From IMG/VR virus record IMGVR_UViG_3300014499_000031, positions 1 to 25,438 of that record: DNA of 25,438 bases, one strand, 5' to 3'. Below are positions 3,463 through 25,438 of the stretch, piece after piece. The DNA is from a virus. The notes under the pieces are model-generated. The model was not told the origin of the DNA. It worked only from the letters and a program-made list of their open reading frames with translations, and did no database searches. The first letter of the stretch is position 1. Each line of letters starts with the position of its first letter. Position numbers and translations under genes: made by a program.

Positions 3463-3684
3463 ATGGAAGGTGTAGATGTTTACGATATTAAGAAAATAAA
3501 GCTAGATAAAACGCCTAGGCCAGCACAGATAAAATTGTTAGAATTCATAAAAGAATCTATCAAATCTAATCACAAAGGTATTATAGTCGATGCTCCAGTT
3601 GGGTGTTTAACGAAAAATGAAAAAATCAATATATATGTATTAAAAGATATAAACATTGATCATGACATTAAAAAAACATTATGA
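3463..3684 (+). CDS. DinG/XPD-like helicase, extein piece 1 plus short N-intein (73 aa)
   Basis: Residues 1-47 are the N-terminus of a superfamily 2 helicase and stop in the middle of the P-loop (GIIVDAPVG). Residue 48 is Cys, starting a block-A-like intein segment (CLTKNEKINIYVLKD) that ends at residue 73 with TGA. The missing half of the P-loop, SGKS, appears at 5304 directly after an intein C-terminus (ISNHN). Joined, they give DAPVGSGKS. The piece thus encodes 47 extein residues and a 26-residue N-intein, too short to be a functional helicase alone. The next gene starts inside its end (ATG 3662). The helicase function is established below from the other pieces; trans-splicing is inferred. 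Confidence 0.85.
   Translation: MEGVDVYDIKKIKLDKTPRPAQIKLLEFIKESIKSNHKGIIVDAPVGCLTKNEKINIYVLKDINIDHDIKKTL
3604..3681 (+). other. Split intein 1, N-terminal fragment (26 aa)
   Basis: It begins with the catalytic Cys1 (CLTKNEKINI, block A) immediately after the P-loop Gly and ends at the ORF stop. Block B is not in this piece, so the split point lies between blocks A and B. A 25-residue N-intein of this kind is known from the AceL-TerL intein; most natural split inteins have N fragments near 100 residues. Confidence 0.8.
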
Positions 3685-4864
3685 AATTTCAAAAGCTATA
3701 AGAAAAATAAAAAATAATTGTAATTATGATTATATTTATAATTTTATAATTGAATATAACGACGAATTAAACTTAAATTTATCTAAAATCGATGAATGGA
3801 TTAAAGAAGTATTAAATAAAATAATTTCTTCTAAAAAAGAATCTTTAAATTTTAATTTTTTGAATTTAAAATACAAAAAAACTTCTAAAGAATATTGGTT
3901 GATACGTGGATGGAATGAAGATTATAGTATAAATAAAGCAAAAGAATGTAATAAAGTATACTCTCATAAAATACAATTAAAAGAAAATGGTTATAGTGAT
4001 GAAGAAATAAAAAATATAATGCTTAAAAGATTTAAAAAAGGAGCGCAAACCTTAAAGAATAGAAGTGATTATGATGAAATAAGAAAAAAATATGGACATA
4101 AAGTAGATAAATATTTAAAGAGAATAAATGCAAATACTAATAAAAATTATACATTAGAAGAAGCAAAAACTATAATATCAGAAATACAAAGAAAAAATTC
4201 AAAAAGAAAATGGGAAAAACATAAACTAAATCCTAGATTTGATAAAATAAACACCAGATTAGAATTTTATTTAGCTAAAGGTTTAAATAAAGAAGAAGCA
4301 GAAAATGCTTTATATGAGAGACAAATAAAAAATGGATTAAATTATTACATTAATAAATACGGTTTAGAAAAAGGAAAGGAAAAGTATAATAAAAGAATAG
4401 AAGAATACAGAAAAAAGATAAAATTACACAGAAAAAAGTATCCACAAAAATGGATTACATCAGGTAAAAGATATAGTGATAGTTCTAAACGTTTTTTTGA
4501 TAAAATTATAGAAGAAATAACTGAATTAAAAGATATGAAAATTTATTATGCCGAAAATGAATATTTTATTTTTGATGAAAAACGTAAAATATATTTCTAC
4601 GATTTTTATATTAAAGAACTTAATTTAATTATTGAATATAATGGATTAGTTTGGCATCCTAAAGAAAGAATACAAAAAAATTGGAAACATGTTTATACTA
4701 AAAAAAGTTCCGAAACTTATTATGATTATGATAGATATAAAGAGCAATTAGCTATAAGTAAAGGTATTGATATAATGTCAATATTTGAGGATGAATTAAT
4801 TTATAAAAGAAAACAAATAATAAATGAACTATATTCAAGAATTAACAAGATTAAAAATAATTAA
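3662..4864 (+). CDS. Homing endonuclease, Vsr-like type, in the gap of split intein 1 (400 aa)
   Basis: This free-standing gene lies exactly between the two fragments of split intein 1. The C-terminal third has FYDFYIKELNLIIEYNGLVW followed by HP, then DRYKEQLAISKGIDIMSIFED. That is the D...I-E-x-N-G...H...K...G...I-x-E-x-E pattern of Vsr-like (EDxHD) endonucleases, the type reported in 'fractured' split-intein genes. The N-terminal two thirds are basic DNA-binding modules: EYWLIRGWNEDYS near 80 and YYINKYGLEKGKEKYNKR near 230, the latter shared with the GIY-YIG protein at 23788. ATG 3662 is preferred over TTG 3656. Composition is visibly more AT-rich than the helicase exteins, as expected of a mobile gene. 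Likely role: cutting intein-free helicase alleles so the insertion spreads. Confidence 0.8.
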   Translation: MTLKKHYEISKAIRKIKNNCNYDYIYNFIIEYNDELNLNLSKIDEWIKEVLNKIISSKKESLNFNFLNLKYKKTSKEYWLIRGWNEDYSINKAKECNKVYSHKIQLKENGYSDEEIKNIMLKRFKKGAQTLKNRSDYDEIRKKYGHKVDKYLKRINANTNKNYTLEEAKTIISEIQRKNSKRKWEKHKLNPRFDKINTRLEFYLAKGLNKEEAENALYERQIKNGLNYYINKYGLEKGKEKYNKRIEEYRKKIKLHRKKYPQKWITSGKRYSDSSKRFFDKIIEEITELKDMKIYYAENEYFIFDEKRKIYFYDFYIKELNLIIEYNGLVWHPKERIQKNWKHVYTKKSSETYYDYDRYKEQLAISKGIDIMSIFEDELIYKRKQIINELYSRINKIKNN

Positions 4865-5981
4865 TGATTTATCATATTATTATGATACGAATTTTAATAA
4901 TTATAGTGATAATGAATTAAATATTTTTTTTACTAAACACGTAAAAAAAAATAAACAAGAAATTTCAATGATAGATTTTTATAATTTAAAAGATAAAACT
5001 GTATTAATTGAATCTTTAGACGGATTTGTAAAAGTCGGTAATAAAATAAAAAAGGAAAATTTAGAATGTTATACATTATCTTTAATAGATAATCGTAAAT
5101 TATCTGGGGCATTTAATCATTTAGTAGAAACTGAAAGAGGTTGGATAAAACTTATAGATTTAACTAAAAATGATTTTGTTTTAACTATTGATGGTTTTAT
5201 AAAAGTAAAAAATATAAGACAAATAAAAACACAAGAGGTATATGATTTAGAATGTTTGCATATAAATCATAGATATTTATCTAATGGTATTTCGAATCAT
5301 AATAGCGGCAAATCATATTTAGCAATTATGTTCATGGATTGGTTTAAAAAGAACTTTGACATTTCTGCTAATTTTGATGTCTTAACAAATTCAAAAATTC
5401 TTCAAGAGCAATATACCCAAGATTTTGATTTTATGAACTCTTTATGGGGCAAAGGATCATACCACTGCGATACATACGATACTGACTGCGGAACAGGCGG
5501 AGAATGGTGCAGAATACAAAATAAGAAGTGTGAAGCTTGTCCATACTCTACAGCAAAATATAGATTTGAAAATGGAGATGTAGCATTGACCAATTTTCAC
5601 TTGTTTCTGACATATATGGTTTATATGCCGCAAGCTTGGAAACGTTCGTCTAGAGTCTTAGTAGTAGATGAGTGTTTACATCCAGATACATTAATTACAA
5701 TAGGAGATGATACAAAAAAGAAAATTATTGATGTGAAAATTGGAGATATTGTTAAAACCGTCAATGAACAAACAAAAAAAATAGAAAATAAACCAGTAAA
5801 AAAATTACATAAAAACCTAAATAAAGGTCAACAAATGTATGAAATAGAGTTAGAAAATGGCTCTACTATTAAAATAACTGGCAACCATAAAGCTAAATTA
5901 ACCAATGGGCAATGGAAAAAAGTTGAAAATTTAGATGGAACCGAAGATATTTTATATATAAATGAAATAGAATCACATTAA
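4824..5981 (+). CDS. DinG/XPD-like helicase, middle piece: C-intein 1, extein 2, N-intein 2
   Basis: Three parts are read in order. Residues 1-160 end in ISNHN, a C-intein with His-Asn terminus; block B-like FNHLVETERGW is near residue 97. Residues 161-283 are helicase: SGKS completes the P-loop, then a Cys-rich region (YHC, TDC, EWC, KKCEACP), TNFHLFLTY, and the Walker B strand RVLVVDE. Residues 284-385 start CLHPDTLITIGDD and carry TGNHKAKL (block B), the N part of a second intein, ending in TAA. The cysteines (102, 109, 116, 123, 126 of the spliced protein) match the Fe-S domain of XPD/DinG helicases. The start could be ATG 4968 instead, giving a 112-residue C-intein. This piece would have to splice at both ends. 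Confidence 0.85.
   Translation: MNYIQELTRLKIINDLSYYYDTNFNNYSDNELNIFFTKHVKKNKQEISMIDFYNLKDKTVLIESLDGFVKVGNKIKKENLECYTLSLIDNRKLSGAFNHLVETERGWIKLIDLTKNDFVLTIDGFIKVKNIRQIKTQEVYDLECLHINHRYLSNGISNHNSGKSYLAIMFMDWFKKNFDISANFDVLTNSKILQEQYTQDFDFMNSLWGKGSYHCDTYDTDCGTGGEWCRIQNKKCEACPYSTAKYRFENGDVALTNFHLFLTYMVYMPQAWKRSSRVLVVDECLHPDTLITIGDDTKKKIIDVKIGDIVKTVNEQTKKIENKPVKKLHKNLNKGQQMYEIELENGSTIKITGNHKAKLTNGQWKKVENLDGTEDILYINEIESH
4968..5303 (+). other. Split intein 1, C-terminal fragment (112 aa or more)
   Basis: The segment contains TVLIESLDGFVKVG, a block-B-like SGAFNHLVETERGW, a further strand pair (FVLTIDGFIKVKNIRQI), block F (VYDLECLHINHRYL) and block G ending in NHN, followed by extein Ser (+1). From Met 4968 it is 112 residues. 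Together with the 26-residue N piece this gives a mini-intein of about 138 residues with no endonuclease domain. Confidence 0.8.
5673..5978 (+). other. Split intein 2, N-terminal fragment (102 aa)
   Basis: It starts with Cys1 (CLHPDTLITI) directly after the helicase Walker B VVDE. It contains block B as GSTIKITGNHKAKL (T-x-x-H) followed by WKKVENLDGTEDIL, then stops at TAA 5979-5981. The length and split point are those of canonical split inteins. Confidence 0.85.
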
Positions 5982-5988
5982 ACAAACA

Positions 5989-6834
5989 ATGAATAATGAA
6001 ACTAAGGATAAAATATATGATTTAATAGAATTATATAAAAATAGATTTGTGCACAGTTCTAATATAAAAAGTGATTTTTTAAAAATCTTAAATGACAATA
6101 ATATAATTTTTGAAGAATTAAAAGATAAAAAATTAAATGTCGAGATAGTATTTGATTATTTGACTCTTCATTGGAATAAAAAATGTGCATTAGAAGGATG
6201 TCATAATATAACACAAAGAAATACTTTATGGCCTAGAAGAAATGGGCCTAAAGTTATGTATAAAAAAACTTGCAGTAAAGAGTGTAATTCCAAATTAGCT
6301 TCAAATAGACAAAAAGGCACAAATAATACTTCTTTTAAAATGTCAGAAGAAGCAAAAATAGAAGCCAGAAAAAAGCAATCTATAACAATGAAAAGAAAAA
6401 TATTTGAAGGTGAATTTATTCCTAATATTACTAATTCTTGGGCCGGATCTAAAGTATCATTATTTATAAATGGTAAAAATATATATTATAGATCTAGTTG
6501 GGAAGCATTTTTTCATTTGTGTAATCCTCATTTAGATTATGAAAAAATAATTGTTAAGTATTTTAAAAACAAAGAAGAAAAAAATTATATTGTGGATTTT
6601 GTAGATTTCAATAAGAAAACAATTTATGAAATTAAACCAGAAAAATTAAAAAGAGGTTCTATATATGATACAAAATGTAATGCGGCTTTAGAATGGGCAA
6701 AAATAAATGGATATGTTTTTACTATAATAGATAATACTTGGTTTTTAGAAAATGTTAAAAAGAATAAACATTTATTGGGAGAACAGAATGATAAAAATAT
6801 AATCATGAAAAGATTAAACCAATTTGATAAATGA
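5989..6834 (+). CDS. Homing endonuclease, PD-(D/E)XK type with Cys4 zinc finger, in the gap of split intein 2 (281 aa)
   Basis: Four cysteines (C66, C71, C95, C99 in CALEGC and CSKEC) suggest a zinc finger in the first third. A basic, NUMOD-like stretch (NNTSFKMSEEAKIEARKKQS) follows. The nuclease core begins at about 167 with YRSSWEAFF (E172). YIVDFVD (D203) and IYEIKPEKL (E214, K216) then form a D...E-x-K catalytic motif of the PD-(D/E)XK fold, as in TnsA-like and phage homing enzymes. K229 and helix AALEWAKINGYVFTIID complete the fold. The gene fills the gap between the fragments of intein 2, starting 7 nt after the N-intein stop and ending in an ATGA overlap with the C-intein gene. Nuclease class differs from intein 1 and 3 enzymes. 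Confidence 0.8.
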   Translation: MNNETKDKIYDLIELYKNRFVHSSNIKSDFLKILNDNNIIFEELKDKKLNVEIVFDYLTLHWNKKCALEGCHNITQRNTLWPRRNGPKVMYKKTCSKECNSKLASNRQKGTNNTSFKMSEEAKIEARKKQSITMKRKIFEGEFIPNITNSWAGSKVSLFINGKNIYYRSSWEAFFHLCNPHLDYEKIIVKYFKNKEEKNYIVDFVDFNKKTIYEIKPEKLKRGSIYDTKCNAALEWAKINGYVFTIIDNTWFLENVKKNKHLLGEQNDKNIIMKRLNQFDK

Positions 6835-6935
6835 AGATTAAATCGATAAAAAAAATTAATTATTCTGATGATGTATATAATTTACACATAGAAGATAATC
6901 ATAACTATTTTGCTAATGATATATGTGTTAGTAAT
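6831..6935 (+). other. Split intein 2, C-terminal fragment (35 aa)
   Basis: It starts at its own ATG and ends in Val-Ser-Asn before the +1 Cys. The penultimate residue is Ser instead of the common His, which is seen in some active inteins. The length fits canonical C fragments of 35-40 residues. Confidence 0.85.
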
Positions 6936-8075
6936 TGTCATTCTTTAGAAGAAGTATTGTGCGACTTTATAACTACTAAGATAAGTAAGCCGTTATTGAA
7001 GAGAAATGGATTCACGGATCAAGAGGCAGAACAAGCCATGTGGTGTTTTGGAGAAAATCCTGAGAATATGGCTTTGGAAACATTCATAGAAATTGTTAAC
7101 GAATCATTTTTGCCTATAGTTAAGACGGTTATAAATCGCTTAGCAAGAGAAGCCGAAGAGACCAAGAGCATGCAGGCTATTAATTTCTTGCAAGGATTAA
7201 CTCAGCATCACTTCAAATGGGAGAATTTAGGATTAGAAGTACAAGCTAAGCCAAACAATTGGATATTAGAAGCTGAGAACATATATAAAAATGATAAGAA
7301 GACTGGAAAAGTGATAGACAAATACATAGAGTTCACCGCTCAACCGGTATGGGCATCTGAATATTTGGAAGAGAAAGTTTGGAGTCGTTATGATTTTATA
7401 TTATTTATGTCCGGCACTATTTTAAACAAAGAATTATTCTGTCAAATAAATGGATTGAATATTGAGGACACTGCATACATACAGATGGATTCTCCATTTC
7501 CTGTGGAAAATAGGCCTATTTATTATTTTTCTAAATTAGGCAAACAAACATTTGCCACAAAGGAATTAACATGGGGCAAGCAAAAGACGGTGTTAGAAAA
7601 AATATTGAAGAAATATAAGAACGAAAAAGGCATAGTTCACACCGCTAATTACGAGATACAAAAATGGGTCCACAAAGAGTTTGAGCATACTAATAGATTA
7701 TTGACTCATGATTCTACTAATAGGTCAGAATTGCTTCAAGAGCATTACAACAGCGAAGAGCCTACGGTATTAGTTTCTCCATCGCTGATGACAGGAATAG
7801 ATTTAGCCGACGATTATTCTAGGCATCAAACGATTCTTAAAATTCCTTATCCTAATTTGAAGAGCCAGAAGGTTAAGAAGAGAATGGAAACTAATAAAGA
7901 TTGGTACAGCTGGAGAACTGCTGTCGATATGCAACAATCTTATGGAAGAAGCATACGAAGCATGGAAGATCATGCAGATACTTATATGCTTGATGGATCA
8001 TTCACTAATTTTTTAAAATACAGTAGGAAATTTTTATTGGACTGGGTAGTAAATGCAATACAATTTGTAGATTAA
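6831..8075 (+). CDS. DinG/XPD-like helicase, C-intein 2 plus C-terminal extein (414 aa)
   Basis: Residues 1-35 are the C-terminal intein fragment (block F VYNLHIEDNHNYF, block G ending CVSN). Residue 36 is the +1 Cys of CHSLEEVL. Joined to VVDE from 5672 it gives VVDECHSLEE, a DECH-type Walker B box like DEAH in DinG/XPD. The remaining 379 residues carry helicase motifs IV-VI: FILFMSGTI, TVLVSPSLMTGIDLADD, and QQSYGRSIRSMEDHADTYML (Q-x-x-G-R-x-x-R with a late Asp). The complete spliced helicase would be 47+123+379 = 549 residues. A role in phage DNA replication or repair (5'-3' Fe-S helicase) is inferred from the family. The ATG overlaps the endonuclease stop (ATGA). Confidence 0.88.
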   Translation: MKIKSIKKINYSDDVYNLHIEDNHNYFANDICVSNCHSLEEVLCDFITTKISKPLLKRNGFTDQEAEQAMWCFGENPENMALETFIEIVNESFLPIVKTVINRLAREAEETKSMQAINFLQGLTQHHFKWENLGLEVQAKPNNWILEAENIYKNDKKTGKVIDKYIEFTAQPVWASEYLEEKVWSRYDFILFMSGTILNKELFCQINGLNIEDTAYIQMDSPFPVENRPIYYFSKLGKQTFATKELTWGKQKTVLEKILKKYKNEKGIVHTANYEIQKWVHKEFEHTNRLLTHDSTNRSELLQEHYNSEEPTVLVSPSLMTGIDLADDYSRHQTILKIPYPNLKSQKVKKRMETNKDWYSWRTAVDMQQSYGRSIRSMEDHADTYMLDGSFTNFLKYSRKFLLDWVVNAIQFVD

Positions 8076-8076
8076 T

Positions 8077-8379
8077 ATGGACATGGACGAAATAAATAAG
8101 TTGCTTGGATTCGAGACGACTTATAATAATAAAGAAACTGTAATAGGATTAGGGCTGCCTCCAGGATTGCCGCCTCCTATAAACGATAATACGGAAGACA
8201 ATTCGTATAAAATATATTTCCAGTTCAATAATGACGAGCCGGCTGTATTCATGGATGGATTGGATATAAATAGTATGTTCACTTTGTCTATGGATCCAAA
8301 ACAAAATTTAGACCAAGGACCATTTTTGCAATTTAGAGATAGAAATAATGTATTCAGGCTTATGTGTAGGAAAAAATAA
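8077..8379 (+). CDS. Hypothetical protein, 100 aa
   Basis: I do not recognise this small acidic protein. It has a Pro/Gly-rich stretch at residues 26-35 (GLPPGLPPPI) separating an N-terminal acidic helix (MDMDEINKLLGF) from a C-terminal beta-rich part (YKIYFQFNNDEPAVF, FLQFRDRNNVFRL). It starts one base after the helicase stop, so it is cotranscribed and probably translationally coupled. Its position suggests a helicase-associated function, but nothing in the sequence shows it. Confidence 0.7.
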   Translation: MDMDEINKLLGFETTYNNKETVIGLGLPPGLPPPINDNTEDNSYKIYFQFNNDEPAVFMDGLDINSMFTLSMDPKQNLDQGPFLQFRDRNNVFRLMCRKK

Positions 8380-8420
8380 TAAAAACTTTTTTAATAAAAA
8401 TAAATATAAACAATACGAAT

Positions 8421-8750
8421 ATGACCACAATAACAAAAAACGATGTGCAGCTGATTACCCAACTAGACTATATAAAAGTCTTATTGGAAGAGAATAGATA
8501 TGGCGAAGCTTCCGATCTTACATCAGAATTATCTAAAAGATTAGACGAAAAGGTTCATAAAATTGCAGAAGACATTAAACTTCGTCAATTGAATCTGCCT
8601 AAATACTTGACCAAAACTAAAGCTAATGAATGGGTCATTATCAACGAGAATTGGTATAAAGTTAAGAAAGTTTCTAAGACTGAAATTATTTTAGAATTGA
8701 ATCGTCAATTTACTATAACAAAAGTATACACTGGCACTGCAACAAAATAA
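8421..8750 (+). CDS. Hypothetical protein, 109 aa
   Basis: The function is unknown. The first 55 residues are predicted helical and charged (VQLITQLDYIKVLLEENRYG, then SELSKRLDEKVHKIAED). The second half looks beta-rich, with WVIINENWYKVKKVSKTEIIL. An A/T-rich element (AATAAATATAAAC) lies about 10-25 nt upstream of the ATG. It abuts the next gene: the stop is immediately followed by the next ATG. Confidence 0.7.
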   Translation: MTTITKNDVQLITQLDYIKVLLEENRYGEASDLTSELSKRLDEKVHKIAEDIKLRQLNLPKYLTKTKANEWVIINENWYKVKKVSKTEIILELNRQFTITKVYTGTATK

Positions 8751-8987
8751 ATGGCTGATATAAAAATTTATGAAGATTTTATTTTAAAATATTATAAGAA
8801 CGATAAAAAAATCCAAAAAGGATTAAATACTTCTCATAAGCATTTAAAAATGTGGATCACTAAAGAATTAATGTATTACGAAGCACAGAAAGAATCTATG
8901 AAAATGACATATTTAAAATATGCCGAGCTCATAAAAAACAAATTTGAATTACAATTCAAAAGCGAAATAAATAAAATGAATCAATAA
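8751..8987 (+). CDS. Hypothetical protein, 78 aa
   Basis: This is a small, very basic, almost wholly helical protein (Lys-rich; HKHLKMWITKELMYYEAQKE). It has no hydrophobic segment long enough for a membrane. ATG follows directly after the TAA of the 109-aa gene, with 0 nt between, implying coupled expression. The lysine content would suit nucleic-acid binding, but this is only a compositional hint. Confidence 0.65.
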   Translation: MADIKIYEDFILKYYKNDKKIQKGLNTSHKHLKMWITKELMYYEAQKESMKMTYLKYAELIKNKFELQFKSEINKMNQ

Positions 8988-8994
8988 ACCAAAC

Positions 8995-10092
8995 ATGACT
9001 GAAACAATGGTACCAACAACAGAAAAAATGAACAAAACTGACATTTTAAACAAAATATCCGAGTCTGAGATATTAAACGCGATCTTTAATCTTTATAAAG
9101 ATGCTAAAACCGAAGGACACGTCTATAAACTAGATAGCTCTAAGTATTCTGGAATGAATGGATTGCTTGGGAGTATTTACGTGTTCACTCTTAAAGATAA
9201 AATAATGGACATCATAGTTCCTTTATTCTCTACAGAAAGAACAGTGACTTGGAATTTTTCTTATAACACTATCTTAGCAGAAACATTAAAAGATTATGAG
9301 TTAGCAGAACATGACATCACTAAGCTTGCTAAAGCGGCTATATTCTATTTGAATAAAACAAATAATGATGTGGACTTTATGACAGTTGTTAATGTTTCTG
9401 ACTGGATCAGTAACGGCTTAAAAGGATCTAATGGTAAATCAGTTTATTACTGGAATGAACAACTTCCAAATGGGGATGGATTGACTAAAGGAGATATTAA
9501 ATCTGAGATCTTTGTGAAGATGCTTCCTAATTGGTCTAATAAAAAATTGATGGAGATTTGCACAGATTATGCTAACGAGAATTTCAAAAAATTTGCAACT
9601 AATTCTGCGACTAGAACTGATAAAACTAAGGTAAGAAATATAGCAAAAGGATTATATGCACAAATCAAGGTGTATCTTCAATTGAAGAACGATGGATATG
9701 ATGTAGATATGACATGGAGCAATAAGGACGATTTAGGAATTGACATCACATGGAAGACTAATGACACTAAAATTAATATAGATGTAAAATCTACAAGCGA
9801 CGAATTCTTAAAGATTTCTAGATTTAGAAAAGAAACAGATTTTTATGCTATTGTTAAATGGGAAAAATCAAATCCTGTTCTTATAGGATTCATCAATAAA
9901 TTCGAATTTTGGCAATCAAATCTTTTAGATACCAAAGCTCCAGTCAAAGATGAAAAATCTGGTTTATATGTTAAGAAATTGACAAAAAAATGGATGAAGT
10001 CTTTCTTAAAGATTGATAAAGTATTTGATAATTTGATGAAGTATCAAGCTTTAAAAGTGAAGAGCAAAGCTAAATTGTTCGATGTAGAATAA
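8995..10092 (+). CDS. Putative PD-(D/E)XK nuclease domain protein, 365 aa
   Basis: Residues 217-270 carry AKGLYAQIKVYLQLKNDGY, then NKDDLGIDITWK and INIDVKSTSDE. This is the alpha-beta-beta core of PD-(D/E)XK enzymes: an N-terminal helix, D250 in LGID, and D263-V-K265 as the D/E-x-K pair. The first 210 residues match nothing I can name; they contain TVTWNFSYNT and a WISNGLKGSNGKSVYYWNEQ segment. It follows the 78-aa gene by 7 nt and ends the rightward block at a strong terminator. A phage recombination, repair or restriction-like nuclease is plausible. The nuclease core is read from the motif; substrate and role are unknown. Confidence 0.55.
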   Translation: MTETMVPTTEKMNKTDILNKISESEILNAIFNLYKDAKTEGHVYKLDSSKYSGMNGLLGSIYVFTLKDKIMDIIVPLFSTERTVTWNFSYNTILAETLKDYELAEHDITKLAKAAIFYLNKTNNDVDFMTVVNVSDWISNGLKGSNGKSVYYWNEQLPNGDGLTKGDIKSEIFVKMLPNWSNKKLMEICTDYANENFKKFATNSATRTDKTKVRNIAKGLYAQIKVYLQLKNDGYDVDMTWSNKDDLGIDITWKTNDTKINIDVKSTSDEFLKISRFRKETDFYAIVKWEKSNPVLIGFINKFEFWQSNLLDTKAPVKDEKSGLYVKKLTKKWMKSFLKIDKVFDNLMKYQALKVKSKAKLFDVE

Positions 10093-13331: not shown

Positions 13332-13942
13332 TACTTCTTGCTATCATAGTGCTTATTAATAATTTTAAAAGATCCTTCAGCATGTTGAACTACAACGCCT
13401 TCGAATGGCTTGCCATTCAATTCGGTAATACCAGAAGAATAATGCTGTATGATTTCTTTGGTCAATACAACATCTTTAGCAATAATTTCTACTGTTGGAA
13501 GATTTAATTTTTCAGCAATGTTCAAGAAATAATATTTATCTCCTTTGCGAGCATATCTTCTTTCCTCTGTCAAATATACAGAGAACATAGCCCAGCCTGC
13601 AGGAAGTTTAGAGTGAGGATTCAATTCTAAGCCTTGTATTCCAATCCCATAAGATTCTCCGCGCAAACAAATAGAAATATTCTCTTCGGTACAAAACTCT
13701 ATTAATTTATTTTTAATATCATATCTTTCGATTTGATCGGTGTAACGGTTGCTGAATATCTCATGCAATTCTAAAGTGCGTCCTAATACTCCAAAACGTT
13801 TATCAGGAACATGATAAAAGAAACTACAATTGTGTACTAATATATTATTTGCAAAAAAATTGTTGTTATTTGCTACTTCAATATCATATCTTTTAGATTG
13901 AGATTGTATTTTTCTGATTGATTTTATTTTTACTATTTGCAT
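13331..13942 (-). CDS. RNA ligase (DRB0094/Rnl5-like), C-intein 3 plus C-terminal extein (203 aa)
   Basis: Residues 1-38 are an intein C fragment (block F RYDIEVANNNNFFANN, then ILVHN) and residue 39 is the +1 Cys of CSFFYHVPDKRFGVLGRT. The 165 extein residues carry the remaining ligase motifs: ICLRGESYGIGIQG (motif III), KPFEGVVVQH (motif IV, E-G-V-V) and GSFKIINKHY (motif V, K-x-x-N/K). The catalytic Lys motif is in the other piece (ends at 15304). Spliced, the enzyme is 163+165 = 328 residues, a normal length. The ATG lies inside the 3' end of the endonuclease gene, overlapping by 50 nt. Confidence 0.85.
   Translation of the reverse strand: MQIVKIKSIRKIQSQSKRYDIEVANNNNFFANNILVHNCSFFYHVPDKRFGVLGRTLELHEIFSNRYTDQIERYDIKNKLIEFCTEENISICLRGESYGIGIQGLELNPHSKLPAGWAMFSVYLTEERRYARKGDKYYFLNIAEKLNLPTVEIIAKDVVLTKEIIQHYSSGITELNGKPFEGVVVQHAEGSFKIINKHYDSKK
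13829..13942 (-). other. Split intein 3, C-terminal fragment (38 aa)
   Basis: It starts at its own ATG and ends with Val-His-Asn before Cys+1, with a full block F/G consensus. It is canonical in length. It pairs with the 98-residue N fragment at 15010-15303. Confidence 0.87.
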
Positions 13943-14936
13943 ATTGATTTATTTTTATTATTAATAATTCTTTAATTTCGTCATTTGTTTTTTTATGTAT
14001 TTCATTTTCCCATATTGTTATAATATTATGACCTTTTTCCTTAGCATAATCATGTTTTAGTTTATCTCTTTTCCAAATGTCCTCAGCCTTTATGTGAGCA
14101 AATTTAAAAAATACAATATCATCGGCTTTATAAAAATTGGGATTAGCATGCCAGTAATTTCCATTCATTTCGATTATTAAATTGAAATCAGGTAAATAAA
14201 TGTCATAATAATATATTTTGTTGTTATATCTATTTTGAGTTTCTTTTGGTTTTTTAATTTTAAATTGATGAATATAAGTAAAATTTAATTCTGATAATAT
14301 TTCAACCAATTTTATTTCTGGCTTACTAATTTTATAGCCTTTGTGTTGTCCATTAGCTATTTTTTCTTTAGATTTATCGGAATGTATATTTTTATTAAAA
14401 AAATCTTCTTTTTCTTTATCTGATAAAGCATAAAACCATTTTTTCCATCCTATTGCTGTTTTTTCATGTGCTTCTTTAGTATTTATTTGTTCGATTATTT
14501 CTTTTATTTGAAATACATTATCTACGCCGTATTTATCCTTTACTGTTTTATTACGTTTTTCAAAAATTTTAGTTCCTCTAGATAAAACATTAACAGTGCC
14601 ATATTTTTTTAAACACGTTTCTTTGTTCTTTTTTTGACCTATAGTAAGAGCACTTTCGGAAAACGTTCTTTTTTTAATATTAAACCATTCCAAAAGAAAA
14701 AATACTAAATCCCAAGGTACATTTAATTTTTTATAATCTGGTAAACTATGTGTTTTATAATGGTTTTCAAAATTTTCTTTATTATTTATAAAATTAAACG
14801 TGTTTAAATAATTATATTGAATAAATTCGAATTTAATTTGTTTTTTACTTATACCATTTATGATTTCATTATTATAACACTTTATATAATGAGGACTTCT
14901 TGCATGGTTTTTACATTTAGGACATGTTGTTTTCAT
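13893..14936 (-). CDS. Homing endonuclease, Vsr-like type, in the gap of split intein 3 (347 aa)
   Basis: The N-terminus has a CPKC knuckle (C5, C8) with a further Cys at 20. Repeated K-Y-G-x-x-N modules (KETCLKKYGTVNVLSR near 106 and KDKYGVDNVFQ near 133) are typical DNA-binding motifs of phage homing enzymes. The C-terminal nuclease reads YYYDIYLPDFNLIIEMNGNY with WH, then DIWKRDKLKHDYAKEKGHNI and TIWENEI. This is a D...I-E-M-N-G...H...D-x-x-K...G...I-x-E-x-E pattern, as in Vsr-like/EDxHD enzymes and in the intein 1 endonuclease. It lies exactly between the two intein 3 fragments and likely targets intein-free RNA ligase genes. It is visibly AT-richer than the ligase exteins. Confidence 0.8.
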   Translation of the reverse strand: MKTTCPKCKNHARSPHYIKCYNNEIINGISKKQIKFEFIQYNYLNTFNFINNKENFENHYKTHSLPDYKKLNVPWDLVFFLLEWFNIKKRTFSESALTIGQKKNKETCLKKYGTVNVLSRGTKIFEKRNKTVKDKYGVDNVFQIKEIIEQINTKEAHEKTAIGWKKWFYALSDKEKEDFFNKNIHSDKSKEKIANGQHKGYKISKPEIKLVEILSELNFTYIHQFKIKKPKETQNRYNNKIYYYDIYLPDFNLIIEMNGNYWHANPNFYKADDIVFFKFAHIKAEDIWKRDKLKHDYAKEKGHNIITIWENEIHKKTNDEIKELLIIKINQYANSKNKINQKNTISI

Positions 14937-15006: not shown

Positions 15007-15792
15007 TTATAAAACTACTACATTTTCATCTCCTTTTAAATCTTTTAATTGTCTATAACATTTTAATTCCGGTAAATAAACTCTATGATTCGAGGTTAAT
15101 GTTAATATTTCTCCGGTTTCTGTTTCTAATTCAAACCAATCATTATCGTTTTCTTGTATTAAATGGTTTTCAATCTTTTGCCATTCTTCTTCATTACTTT
15201 CGGTATTAAAACATTTTACTTTGCCTTTATACTTAGAATCGCATATTTCTTTAATTGTTTTAATACCATCTTTGGTTTCAACTAATGTTTCTTCTGAAAG
15301 ACAACTTTGCCCGTCCACTTTTAATCCGATATCTACAAGTTGTCCATAAGGCAATTTGTGATCTGGAAAATTTTCGTAACGTTCTTCGTCAGTTTTAGGT
15401 TGTTGATATGGCAATCCGCCTTTTACTTTTAGATCATTTGGTGCTGGTGGCTCATAGTGAGTAACTCCAATCATAGCGGCAACATCAGTTCCTACTTCAA
15501 GATCTTTTAAATCATTTCCATTAGGAAGAATATCAAACGGTATCACAATTCCCTCAGACCATTCTTTTCTTAAAAGACATGCTTTAATACGTTTAGGAGA
15601 ATACTTGCGGTATTCTTCAGTCCATGATTCCACTGGCAACAGAGAATCAGGTCTAACATAAACAATTTTTTCTCCGCCTTTATAAAGGCCTTTTTGAGTT
15701 ACGCATTGAAACCCTAAGACTTTTACTAAGTCTAATTTGTCGGCATTCCAGTGAGCCTTAACTTCTCCTATTAATTCGATACTTGCATCCAT
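15007..15792 (-). CDS. RNA ligase (DRB0094/Rnl5-like), N-terminal extein plus N-intein 3 (261 aa)
   Basis: The first 163 residues match the layout of the DRB0094-type RNA ligases. An N-terminal OB-like domain carries ADKLDLVKVLGFQCVTQKGL and VYVRPDSLLP. Next comes RIKACLLRKEWSEGIVIPF, then the nucleotidyl-acceptor motif LKVDGQS with Lys158. Directly after that Ser, Cys164 starts an intein (CLSEETLVETKDG) running to TAA. Joined to CSFFYHV at 13828 it gives KVDGQSCSFFY. The family seals RNA nicks using ATP. The gene heads a leftward operon divergent from the 15862 gene; a TATAATAG element lies at 15810-15817 on the minus strand. Neither piece alone has all ligase motifs. Confidence 0.87.
   Translation of the reverse strand: MDASIELIGEVKAHWNADKLDLVKVLGFQCVTQKGLYKGGEKIVYVRPDSLLPVESWTEEYRKYSPKRIKACLLRKEWSEGIVIPFDILPNGNDLKDLEVGTDVAAMIGVTHYEPPAPNDLKVKGGLPYQQPKTDEERYENFPDHKLPYGQLVDIGLKVDGQSCLSEETLVETKDGIKTIKEICDSKYKGKVKCFNTESNEEEWQKIENHLIQENDNDWFELETETGEILTLTSNHRVYLPELKCYRQLKDLKGDENVVVL
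15010..15303 (-). other. Split intein 3, N-terminal fragment (98 aa)
   Basis: It opens with Cys1 (CLSEETLVETKDGIKTI, block A). Block B reads GEILTLTSNHRVYL, with T-x-x-H, followed by YRQLKDLKGDENVVV. It sits immediately after the KVDGQS ligase motif. Architecture is canonical. Confidence 0.87.
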
Positions 15793-22586: not shown

Positions 22587-23729
22587 ATGGCCACAAAAAA
22601 ACCAGCAACAACTAATTACACTCCTGATGAACAGCTTTATTTAAAAGCTAAGGAAGCTTATTACAAAGGCGAACCAATCATGTCCGACGAAGATTTTGAC
22701 ATCTTAGAAGATACCTTAAGAAACGAAGATTCGTTTGTTGTTGAAATAGTTGGAACTTCTAAAAAAGGTCCTAAATTAGATGTGCCGCATCCTACTCCAA
22801 TGCTTTCTTTGGATAAGGTAAAATTTAAAAAGAATTATGTGCCTTACCAAGAGGCAGTTCATAAATTATATTCTAAAGGCAAAGGCAAAATTATATATGA
22901 GCCTAAATTGGATGGAAATGCTATCACTATCACATACGAAAACGGAAACTTGATTTCCATAGCTTCTCGTGGAACTGGAGTATTAGGACAAAATTATACC
23001 GACAAATTAAAAAGCAAAGTCCCAGCAAAAATAAAAGATTTTACCGGCGAAGTTCGTGGAGAATGCGTGATTGATACAACATTGTTTGATCAAAAATATT
23101 TAACCTCAGAAGACCCAACCGCTAAGACATACAAAAATGCCAGAAATTTCGTAGCCGGTATTTTAAGCTCTGATATTGATAAAACAGTATTAGAGAAATT
23201 AAAAGACATTGATTTCGTTGCATTCGATGTTAAAGGATTAGAATTGGAAGAACCTTCTAAATGGTTAGCTTCAAAAGGATTTGAAGTATTAGATTTTACT
23301 GTATTTACTATTGAAATAAATGAAGAAACATTTGTTCGTATCTATAAAGAATTTGCTGAATATCGCGAGACTTGCAAATATCAATTGGATGGTATCGTTG
23401 CTAAGTTTGTCGACCCTAAATTAAGAGAAGAATTAGGAGAAACAGGACATCATCCTAATTGGGCATTAGCAATTAAATTCGTATCTCAACAAGTTTCTAC
23501 CGGAATAAATGGCATTGAATTAGGAATGACCAAACGTGGAGAACTTGCACCAGTTGCTCTTTTAGATCCTGTAGAGCTGATGGGTTCCACTGTAAGACGA
23601 GCATCATTATATAATGCTTCATGGATGATTGCTAATCGTTGTTATCCTGGAGCTGAAGTTTCTATCATAAAATCTGGAGACATCATTCCTGTTATAACTG
23701 GAATTGTTAAACCGGCTCCGATTCTATAA
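22587..23729 (+). CDS. ligA: NAD-dependent DNA ligase, N-terminal half (adenylation and OB domains), 380 aa
   Basis: The domain Ia signature for NAD binding is present (AYYKGEPIMSDEDFDILEDT), then HPTPMLSLDKV. The catalytic motif is EPKLDGNAI with Lys107. GEVRGECVI (motif III), KYQLDGIVAKF (motif IV) and ALAIKF (motif V) follow. The OB domain reads MTKRGELAPVALLDPVELMG and ends with GDIIPVITGIVKP. The protein stops exactly where a normal LigA enters its zinc finger, HhH and BRCT domains; these come from the gene at 24841. So NAD-dependent ligase is encoded in two parts, as also known for phage T5. It should adenylate itself, but needs the other half for efficient DNA binding. ATG 22587 is 3 nt after the 60-aa gene. 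Confidence 0.93.
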   Translation: MATKKPATTNYTPDEQLYLKAKEAYYKGEPIMSDEDFDILEDTLRNEDSFVVEIVGTSKKGPKLDVPHPTPMLSLDKVKFKKNYVPYQEAVHKLYSKGKGKIIYEPKLDGNAITITYENGNLISIASRGTGVLGQNYTDKLKSKVPAKIKDFTGEVRGECVIDTTLFDQKYLTSEDPTAKTYKNARNFVAGILSSDIDKTVLEKLKDIDFVAFDVKGLELEEPSKWLASKGFEVLDFTVFTIEINEETFVRIYKEFAEYRETCKYQLDGIVAKFVDPKLREELGETGHHPNWALAIKFVSQQVSTGINGIELGMTKRGELAPVALLDPVELMGSTVRRASLYNASWMIANRCYPGAEVSIIKSGDIIPVITGIVKPAPIL

Positions 23730-23753
23730 TACTACCAGATTTTATAATAAAAA

Positions 23754-23781
23754 CTTTAATATATAATAAAAAATATTAAAG
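23754..23781 (+). repeat. 9-bp inverted repeat before the GIY-YIG gene
   Basis: CTTTAATAT (23754-23762) and ATATTAAAG (23773-23781) form a perfect stem with a 10-nt A/T loop, ending 6 nt before the endonuclease ATG. A TATATAATA promoter-like element overlaps it. It could fold in read-through mRNA and limit endonuclease translation. Confidence 0.55.
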
Positions 23782-23787
23782 TAAATT

Positions 23788-24696
23788 ATGAAAATATGTG
23801 GTATTTATTCATGGACAAATACAATAAATGGTAAAAAATATATTGGAGAAAGTAAAAATATCGACACTCGATGGATTAAACATGAGCAAAATGCTAAATT
23901 AGGAATAAGAAGTAAATTTTATAATGCTTTAAGAAAGTACGGCAGTAATATTTTTGTTAAAGAAATTTTAGAATTGTGTGATAAAGATTCTGATAAAATG
24001 TATATGTTAGAAAGAGAGAAATTTTATATGTTAAAATTCGATTCAGTTAAAAATGGATATAATTCATCTATTTTATATGATACTATATCCAATAATATAA
24101 ATAAAGTCGAAATTTATAAAAAGATAAGTAAAAATAAAAAGGAATTAAATAAATCTTGGATATACAAAGATAATAAATCTAAATGTGTTAATGCTGATAT
24201 ATTAAATAATTATTTAAAAGATGGATGGAATTTAGGTAGAAAATTTAGTCAAATACATAAACAAAATATTTCTAAAGCACTTAAAAAATTATGGAATGAA
24301 GGTTATATGCCTTCTGAAGAATCTAGAGCAAAAATGAGTACTTTCAAAGATAAAAACCATACTGAAAAAACATTAAAGAAAATGCGTAAAGCATGTAAAA
24401 ATCAATATACATTAAAATGGTTTGTAAAAAGATATGGCAAATTAGATGGATTTTTAAAATATAATGATAAATGTAAAAAACTTAAAAATCGAAAAATGGC
24501 TAACGGTATTGATTGGTTTATTAGTAGATATGGAATAGAAGAAGGCATTAAAAAATATCAATTAAAACAAGAAAAATTAAGTAAGAGAAAAAAGACATTT
24601 ATAAATAATAGTAATGTATGTAAACTTATATCTTTAAATGAATTAGAATCGTATATTAATAATGGATGGACTAAAGGTATGTTAAAAGCCTGTTAA
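23788..24696 (+). CDS. GIY-YIG homing endonuclease between the DNA ligase halves, 302 aa
   Basis: The N-terminal GIY-YIG domain reads CGIYSWTNTINGKKYIGESK with R28, E75 (MLEREKFY) and N92 (NGYNSS), the full catalytic set. Next come a segment WIYKDNKSKCVNADILNNYL with KDGW (124-147), a NUMOD3-like FSQIHKQNISKALKKLW (153-169), and two repeats WFVKRYGKLDGFLKYNDK (211-228) and WFISRYGIEEGIKKYQLK (243-260). A second ELESYINNGWTKG copy ends the protein. The two-repeat module also occurs in the intein 1 endonuclease. It sits exactly between the ligase halves, and its last codons and stop lie within the promoter repeat at 24690. It is a likely agent of, or passenger at, the ligase split. Confidence 0.88.
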   Translation: MKICGIYSWTNTINGKKYIGESKNIDTRWIKHEQNAKLGIRSKFYNALRKYGSNIFVKEILELCDKDSDKMYMLEREKFYMLKFDSVKNGYNSSILYDTISNNINKVEIYKKISKNKKELNKSWIYKDNKSKCVNADILNNYLKDGWNLGRKFSQIHKQNISKALKKLWNEGYMPSEESRAKMSTFKDKNHTEKTLKKMRKACKNQYTLKWFVKRYGKLDGFLKYNDKCKKLKNRKMANGIDWFISRYGIEEGIKKYQLKQEKLSKRKKTFINNSNVCKLISLNELESYINNGWTKGMLKAC

Positions 24697-24736
24697 TAAC
24701 TTTATTTTAAAGTTTCGAATAAAAGTGGTATATTTA
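24690..24736. repeat. Promoter-containing direct repeat, copy 2
   Basis: This 47-nt copy of the sequence at 22349-22396 lacks one T and contains the endonuclease stop codon at its left edge. TATATTTA is at 24729-24736. It probably drives the C-terminal ligase gene 105 nt downstream. Confidence 0.9.
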
Positions 24737-24840
24737 TAACTTGAACCAATAAAAGAACCTAAATCAAATTTAATATTACTGTTGAGAAAATTATGACAAA
24801 AATTTTAAGAAATTAAAAATACTAATCTAAAATAGAAAAC

Positions 24841-25438
24841 ATGAACAAGAACAATGAAATACCGGAAGAATTACTCACAATATTAATATCATCTAAAACA
24901 TTAGATGAAAATGGAAAATGGCATGGTCACAAAGTGACTTACAATGGAGTGAACTTAATGGTTGAAGGTTTTGAAAATACTCCAGAATACAAAGCAATCA
25001 GAATGAACACCGCCATAACAGCTCTAGGATTCAAAGGAATTGGCCCTGCTACCGCCGAATTGTTGAGCAGTTTAAAACTGTCTGACATCATGGCTCAGAA
25101 CCCTGAAGGTCTTAAAATAATGCTTTTAAATACCGGCAATTTTAAAGAAGGAAGAGAATTGACTCTTATTATAGAAGCATTCTTTGCTTTGACTGAAGTT
25201 GAACTATGGCAGGTGATTTATTCATTCGGTTACAGAAATTGTGGCAAAACAATCAGCAAAGAGTTAGCCAAATATATGCTTAAACAAGATCATTCCTTCA
25301 AAGGATTAGAAAAGAAAGTGGTAGAAGCATTTGTAAATGACGAGGAACGCATTAAAGAAGTTAAAGAGTTTGTAGAGATATTAGAGAACAATAATGTAAA
25401 AGTTAACAAACCAAAAAGCACTGAAGGATTAGTTACCT
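24841..25438 (+). CDS. NAD-dependent DNA ligase, C-terminal half (HhH region), partial
   Basis: The frame is open from ATG 24841 to the window edge (199 codons). Residues 58-73 contain ALGFKGIGPATAELL, and further on VIYSFGYRNCGKTISKELAK occurs. These are helix-hairpin-helix units like those of the LigA C-terminal domain (GIRxVGxxxAxxLAxxF). A BRCT domain would be expected beyond the window. The zinc-finger part that should open this half appears degenerate: residues 1-50 (EIPEELLTILISSKTLDENG and onward) have no Cys. It follows the GIY-YIG gene behind its own promoter repeat and a 104-nt leader. It should join non-covalently with the product of 22587-23729. No intein residues are seen at the break. 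Confidence 0.8.
   Translation, partial: MNKNNEIPEELLTILISSKTLDENGKWHGHKVTYNGVNLMVEGFENTPEYKAIRMNTAITALGFKGIGPATAELLSSLKLSDIMAQNPEGLKIMLLNTGNFKEGRELTLIIEAFFALTEVELWQVIYSFGYRNCGKTISKELAKYMLKQDHSFKGLEKKVVEAFVNDEERIKEVKEFVEILENNNVKVNKPKSTEGLVT

Follow-up and report, generated by a model that had tools for sequence, protein, structure and literature searches.

A VidaL-like short-N split intein, extended in its C piece, at the ATP-binding loop of a viral helicase

What kind of intein interrupts the helicase gene of the viral record IMGVR_UViG_3300014499_000031, and with which of the known split inteins does its two-piece layout belong? The window analysed here, 25,438 bases long, is this entire IMG/VR entry, a single metagenomic record in which the plus strand from 3463 to 8075 encodes a DinG/XPD-like helicase distributed over three open reading frames (ORFs; phrog_2488, expectation value (E) 5.5e-63; Helicase_C_2, 1.1e-19). 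A sequence-only reading had ascribed to the first interruption, intein 1, the rare architecture of the AceL-TerL intein. Few natural split inteins with a peptide-sized N piece have been described, excerpts of two papers naming VidaL, PolB16 and the AceL, GOS and Cat TerL inteins (PMC13014065, PMC11766414); as far as an excerpt of the former goes, VidaL and PolB16 are split at site S1, and AceL and GOS TerL at site S2, after helix alpha1 (PMC13014065). Judged by sequence and predicted structure, intein 1 is naturally split, has a short N piece and belongs to the VidaL-like, S1-split P-loop group. It is neither AceL-type nor rare in layout; among its differences from VidaL is an extended C piece.

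Results

Intein 1 begins with Cys1 at 3604, directly behind a 47-residue N-extein (3463..3603, in ORF 3463-3684) that ends in VDAPVG and is 53% identical over its 47 residues to the helicase of L002, a 313-kb viral contig in which this gene is uninterrupted. Its N-terminal piece (IntN) runs for 26 codons to a TGA at 3682-3684 and holds block A-type sequence only, while FNHLVET and the block F-like and G-like motifs all lie in the C-terminal piece (IntC), as the sequence-only reading had stated. Homology, profile and model delimit an IntC core of 114 residues (4962..5303), which includes alpha1 and the block B-, F- and G-like motifs and ends in SNGISNHN at 5303. SGKS follows, giving the junction N|S, and the exteins meet at APVG|SGKS, the Walker A motif or ATP-binding loop of the helicase, which reads APVGIGKS without interruption in L002. 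Cys1, the C-terminal His-Asn and the +1 Ser are all present.

Where in the intein fold does this break fall? The C piece (short form, residues 6-111) matches VidaL (PDB 6vgv) at E 2.4e-8, and a Walker A intein in UvsX of Salicola phage SCTP-2 (L005) matches VidaL at 3.5e-46; as the SCTP-2 intein is both contiguous and VidaL-like, it can be used as a ruler for the split position. In this intein and 23 other contiguous relatives, the N and C parts lie in a single chain. Against a profile of 23 contiguous VidaL-like inteins (139 positions), the C piece of intein 1 scores 82 bits over positions 16-139, with alpha1 placed in the C piece; the two other split inteins of the window score 22-24 bits with their N pieces and 10-12 bits with their C pieces. 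An AlphaFold model of the 160-residue C piece, based on an alignment of 46 window and locus translations, has a mean predicted local distance difference test score (pLDDT) of 94.9 and forms a HINT domain without its first strand; helices at 3-7, 9-19, 29-43 and 49-53 precede the first HINT strand, the last of them corresponding to alpha1. Structure alignment (VIA-align) of this model to VidaL yields Z 17.8 and a root-mean-square deviation of 2.0 over 123 aligned residues. In most solved inteins among the matches listed, model residues 40/45-160 fall on intein residues ~10-17 onward (NpuDnaE 11-137, gp41-1 12-125), so that no more than the initial ~10 residues of the fold are absent from the C piece, which indicates site S1. 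The S2 C piece of Cat-TerL (6dsl) aligns only from residue 30, about 15-20 residues deeper in the HINT fold. On sequence and model, the split falls before alpha1, at S1 between beta2 and alpha1, and the C piece comprises HINT residues ~11 to the end.

The core of this C piece is under purifying selection. In comparisons with close relatives, nonsynonymous divergence (dN) is 0.13-0.15 against a synonymous divergence (dS) of 0.74-1.03, a dN/dS of about 0.12-0.20, and His99, Asn148, His149, Arg150, Tyr151, His159 and Asn160 are invariant in 46/46 aligned rows. Intein 1 is a real, probably active S1-split intein of the VidaL-like family, and its C piece is extended.

The 26 residues of IntN divide into a conserved core of about 15, CLTKNEKINIYVLKD (3604..3648), and a tail of 11 (3649..3681) that overlaps the start of the next ORF. 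In the three closest relatives (L065, L067 and L111) the N pieces stop after 15 residues, reading CLTKNEKIRIYKLKK in L067 and L111, with 12/15 residues identical to the window, and CLTKNQKIRIYKLKK in L065; they lack the tail because of a 5-nucleotide indel at their stop, as seen in the DNA alignment with the window. A VidaL-like intein would be expected to have a very short N piece of 15-17 residues; N pieces of 24-34 residues, with similar tail lengths, occur in other family members (15-34 residues over both surveys described below).

At the other end of the gap, the sequence-only reading had given the C piece at least 112 residues; it would have 111 if translated from the ATG at 4971, and 160 from the likelier start at ATG 4824. 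Here an MNY start, about 40 nucleotides inside the preceding ORF, is kept in 4/4 sequences (the window and L065, L067 and L111), and both L111 and the more distant L003 have no Met at the position equivalent to 4971. ATG 4824 was therefore taken as the start, and the C piece most likely has 160 residues rather than 111; those of L065, L067 and L111 have 160-162.

How unusual is a short, separate N piece? Scans of the viral_contigs collection with a single sequence and with a first alignment found one locus each, and given this poor yield motif patterns were used instead. The first requires NHRY, three residues, G, three residues and HN-x-GK, the second is one residue longer, and both find only inteins with xGK after the His-Asn. 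The first pattern occurs in 109 stretches of viral_contigs and one of genome_contigs, the latter judged a chance match. From both collections, 82 distinct upstream sequences were obtained: 23 are contiguous, in 34 the N piece is separate, and the other 25 are unplaced or unrelated. The 34 separate pieces have 15-28 residues (median 16), behind which the gap measures at least 900 nucleotides in 19/34 and less than 300 in 15/34. The second pattern gave 26 stretches, 20 of them distinct; in 10/20 the N piece is separate and measures 17-34 residues. In the two surveys together, 44 distinct sequences have a short separate N piece, and the gap ORF is often of endonuclease size. With 34/82 and 10/20, the short-N split is common in the VidaL-like family, and its description as rare has to be given up. 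Matches judged to lie outside the family were L038/L095, L121, L126, L129 and L134. In a tree of 73 rows and 114 columns, split forms (33 rows) are mixed with contiguous ones (23 rows), and the state changes at least 10 (10-12) times, a rough count in view of the many weak forks.

Several members deserve mention in their own right. L024 (split, with a gap of ~1.1 kb) and L081 (fused, no gap) form an otherwise nearly identical natural pair, and L096 keeps internal Met residues where the C piece of L051 starts. VidaL-identical or near-identical pieces lie in the GESG|SGKS Walker A of L012/L045/L055. In L093, L083, L051 and L016 the profile weakly matches a further intein in the same ORF, downstream of the first, and UvsX of SCTP-2 carries two contiguous inteins.

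The split gap of intein 1 is occupied by a free-standing ORF of 400 residues (3662..4864) of the homing-endonuclease type. It matches homing endonuclease families (phrog_3339/22677) weakly, with a best PHROG E of 6.9e-6, and no Pfam family, and there are weak matches to relatives annotated as VSR endonuclease. L065, L067 and L111, which are independent contigs, have the same order of N piece, ORF and C piece in the same helicase site, with gap ORFs of 398 residues that are 50-54% identical to that of the window. Identity between these three and the window is 73-80% in the N piece and 76-81% in the C core, versus 38-51% in the helicase parts; the helicase parts of L002 are 53-76% identical to the window, yet contain neither intein. 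That the intein core is closer than its helicase, and the closer helicase intein-free, fits the prediction of horizontal spread, and from these comparisons intein 1 looks horizontally mobile. In the huge phage LR756500 (L003), the cassette interrupts a PhoH-like Walker A, with a 26-residue N piece, an extended C piece and a gap ORF 39% identical to that of the window. Within this 462-kb genome (LR756500.1), four places are related to the window's gap ORF by tblastn.

What, then, is the extension? It comprises 46 residues (4824..4961), helical in the AlphaFold model with pLDDT 86-96, and is 47-56% identical between the window and L065/L067/L111. Many family C pieces of at least 150 residues open with an extension. 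With a profile of eight extended C pieces (A8), 16/20 PDB matches are helix-turn-helix (HTH) or other DNA-binding proteins (HipB, SinR, 434 repressor and others), the remaining four being OTUB2, at a best E of only 0.024; Pfam HTH_26 and HTH_3 each match 3/8 members, one at the curated cut-off. In its extension, the L039 model has helices 3-11, 16-23, 27-32 and 40-57, and for most of this stretch the pLDDT block means lie at 95-98. A profile of the window-type extension (A9; 5 rows) matches A8 at a probability of 94.9, the E-value referring to that single comparison, but without ~20 columns spanning the turn and recognition helix. Judged by profiles and models, the extension is most likely what is left of an HTH-like accessory (DNA-recognition) domain that was once inserted after beta2 and before alpha1 and is now reduced to its supporting helices. 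Extended C pieces (here at least 150 residues, with the length of L123 set by hand) occur with longer N pieces, the median being 24.5 residues (24 rows) versus 16 (21 rows; p 5e-6, ignoring relatedness), which suggests that N tail and extension may touch. A helical extension also occurs inside the single chain of a contiguous intein, between its N part and alpha1 (L130:3555-4148, plus strand).

The rest of the helicase gene holds a second intein. The ORF at 4824-5981 carries, behind IntC of intein 1, a middle extein of 123 residues (5304..5672) that starts with SGKS, ends in VVDE and is 76% identical to L002 over its length, and then the IntN of intein 2 (5673..5981; 102 residues plus stop; Pfam Intein_splicing 2.3e-9, Hint 6.7e-10; profile positions 1-104). 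There follow a free-standing endonuclease ORF of 281 residues (5989..6834; phrog_15427 endonuclease, 4.9e-22), of a family unlike the gap ORF of intein 1, the 35-residue IntC (6831..6935; Pfam Intein_splicing 7.9e-6; profile positions 107-139) and a C-extein of 379 residues (6936..8075), which starts with CHSLEE and carries the Helicase_C_2 and phrog_2488 matches given above. All exteins have their full length and keep the frame through both inteins; they align with L002 at APVG|SGKS and DE|CHS.

That a canonically split intein shares the gene with intein 1 is borne out by intein 2, split at S0 into 102 and 35 residues. Its separate origin, also proposed from sequence alone, agrees with the bit scores above and with L065, L067 and L111, in which the DEAH site is uninterrupted and intein 2 absent, so that inteins 1 and 2 probably entered the gene separately. 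As VidaL-like genes with one detected intein are also S1-split, avoidance of mis-pairing is not needed to explain the S1 split.

Elsewhere in the window, an RNA ligase gene on the minus strand contains intein 3, likewise canonical, with an N piece of 98 residues (15010-15303), its own endonuclease-type ORF (13893-14936) and a C piece of 38 residues (13829-13942). An NAD-dependent DNA ligase (22587-25437, plus strand) consists of two ORFs separated by a free-standing GIY-YIG ORF (23788-24696); no intein was seen there, and at the gathering threshold Rfam gave no family for the window and no group I intron for the DNA ligase region. In L067, a type II topoisomerase-like gene beside the helicase (oriented 7692-9479) ends in a canonical-looking N-intein (GLCLEENTEILIFNGEV...).

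Discussion

What can be said about the working of this locus? We consider it highly probable, as a whole, that a VidaL-like S1 P-loop intein with an HTH-remnant extension acts by trans-splicing on a three-chain helicase and is accompanied by a homing ORF. The short N piece, providing beta1, most of beta2 and the Cys1 nucleophile, would be made on the 47-residue N-extein. A second polypeptide, which includes the middle extein and IntN of intein 2, would carry the 160-residue C piece with its helical extension, alpha1 and the remainder of the HINT fold. The N piece would complete the HINT fold of the C piece, joining APVG to SGKS in trans, while intein 2, before or after this step, would splice VDE to CHS. 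We infer from sequence and model that the pieces pair and splice, the product being a helicase of ~549 residues (47+123+379) rebuilt from three polypeptides. The gap ORF is most likely a homing endonuclease, which would be active in spreading the cassette.

Several observations weigh against parts of this picture. IntN of intein 1 alone matches the profile with E 0.067 only, though there can be little doubt of its identity, given where it lies and what its relatives show. Over its first 13 codons the C piece overlaps the ORF upstream, so that conservation of the start codon is partly tied to that ORF, and no Shine-Dalgarno-like site is evident by eye ahead of ATG 4824 or ATG 4971. The dN/dS of the extension, 0.37 to 1.08 against close relatives, indicates weaker or relaxed constraint. 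HTH matches in relatives are mostly under the curated cut-offs, the window's own extension searched alone matched no HTH protein, and in the VIA-align search with the L039 model intein rows fill the list and the HTH part is not reached.

An S2 split as in AceL-TerL would place beta1, beta2 and alpha1 on the N piece, while the C piece would begin with beta3 and have ~111 residues from ATG 4971. It would account for an N length of 26, close to the ~25 of AceL, and for the presence of that ATG. However, alignment, profile and model all place alpha1 in the C piece, the Cat S2 C piece aligns from residue 30 only, the N pieces of relatives ending at residue 15 are too short for alpha1, and M4971 is not kept in L003 and L111. 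We regard this reading as highly improbable and have rejected it in favour of the VidaL-like S1 split. The same features could be seen as a decayed cassette, an intein on its way out whose helicase may not be rebuilt: the tail set off by the 5-nucleotide indel is a difference from the closest relatives, the recognition helix is missing and the extension weakly constrained. Yet the low dN/dS of the C core, the intact splicing residues, the tailed N pieces of 24-34 residues in other members and the full-length, in-frame exteins make decay a very improbable account. That false stops in sequencing or assembly have broken a contiguous maxi-intein might be suspected of a single metagenomic record of this size, but the identical order of N stop, ORF and C start in L065, L067, L111, L003 and others, recurring in independent contigs, leaves this artefact a negligible chance, and it was rejected.

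For the extension of this S1-split intein, a more far-reaching history may be imagined. There may be an S1-split sub-group whose IntC bears, where beta2 and alpha1 are parted, a DNA-recognition module derived from an HTH domain, and in which module and endonuclease once formed one homing unit; in lineages like that of the window the recognition helix would have been lost and the module turned into an assembly scaffold holding the longer N tail, homing thus coming first and fragment docking later. We offer this as a tentative and rather unlikely scenario. The endonucleases of VMA inteins are of the LAGLIDADG type. As an excerpt of PMC8966425 has it, VMA inteins can contain accessory domains of the HTH-like kind, and these were what the literature on HTH domains in phage split inteins with homing endonucleases yielded, as far as its excerpts go. 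They share with our locus an HTH-like module alongside an endonuclease-linked intein; in them, unlike the window, the module is in one chain with the endonuclease, whereas here it sits on IntC and lacks the recognition helix.

How does intein 1 compare with other known systems? With VidaL, which has an N piece of 16 residues in a UvsX-type Walker A, it shares HINT sequence and fold, the S1 split, Cys1 and an SHN-type end; it differs in its DinG/XPD-like helicase host in the 11-residue N tail and in a 46-residue helical C extension that is absent from VidaL. The UvsX intein of Pseudomonas phage PA5oct (L004) is likewise inserted in Walker A, with 17 residues in N, an ORF of 481 and 128 residues in C, but has no C-piece extension and another host gene. 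In 2009, Dassa and colleagues reportedly described fractured genes in which free-standing endonucleases accompany split inteins, those described being canonically split; such genes have in common with the window an endonuclease-type ORF between separately translated intein-extein halves, whereas the gap of the window is at S1. The AceL-, GOS- and Cat-TerL inteins share the natural split into short N and long C pieces, the HINT fold and an N length in the ~25-37 range; their host is the terminase large subunit, unlike the phrog_2488 helicase here, and according to an excerpt of PMC13014065 their S2 N pieces hold alpha1, which in the window lies in the C piece.

Natural split inteins whose N piece has the size of a synthetic peptide serve in protein labelling. 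In the window, the helicase would need two trans-splicing reactions at different split sites, and a literature search for phage fractured genes with two split inteins found none. Endonuclease domains within inteins are said to occupy one conserved site, as far as an excerpt of PMC6801210 goes; the free-standing ORF at S1 bears on how split inteins arise, and with the near-identical pair L024 and L081, the step from split to fused is directly testable.

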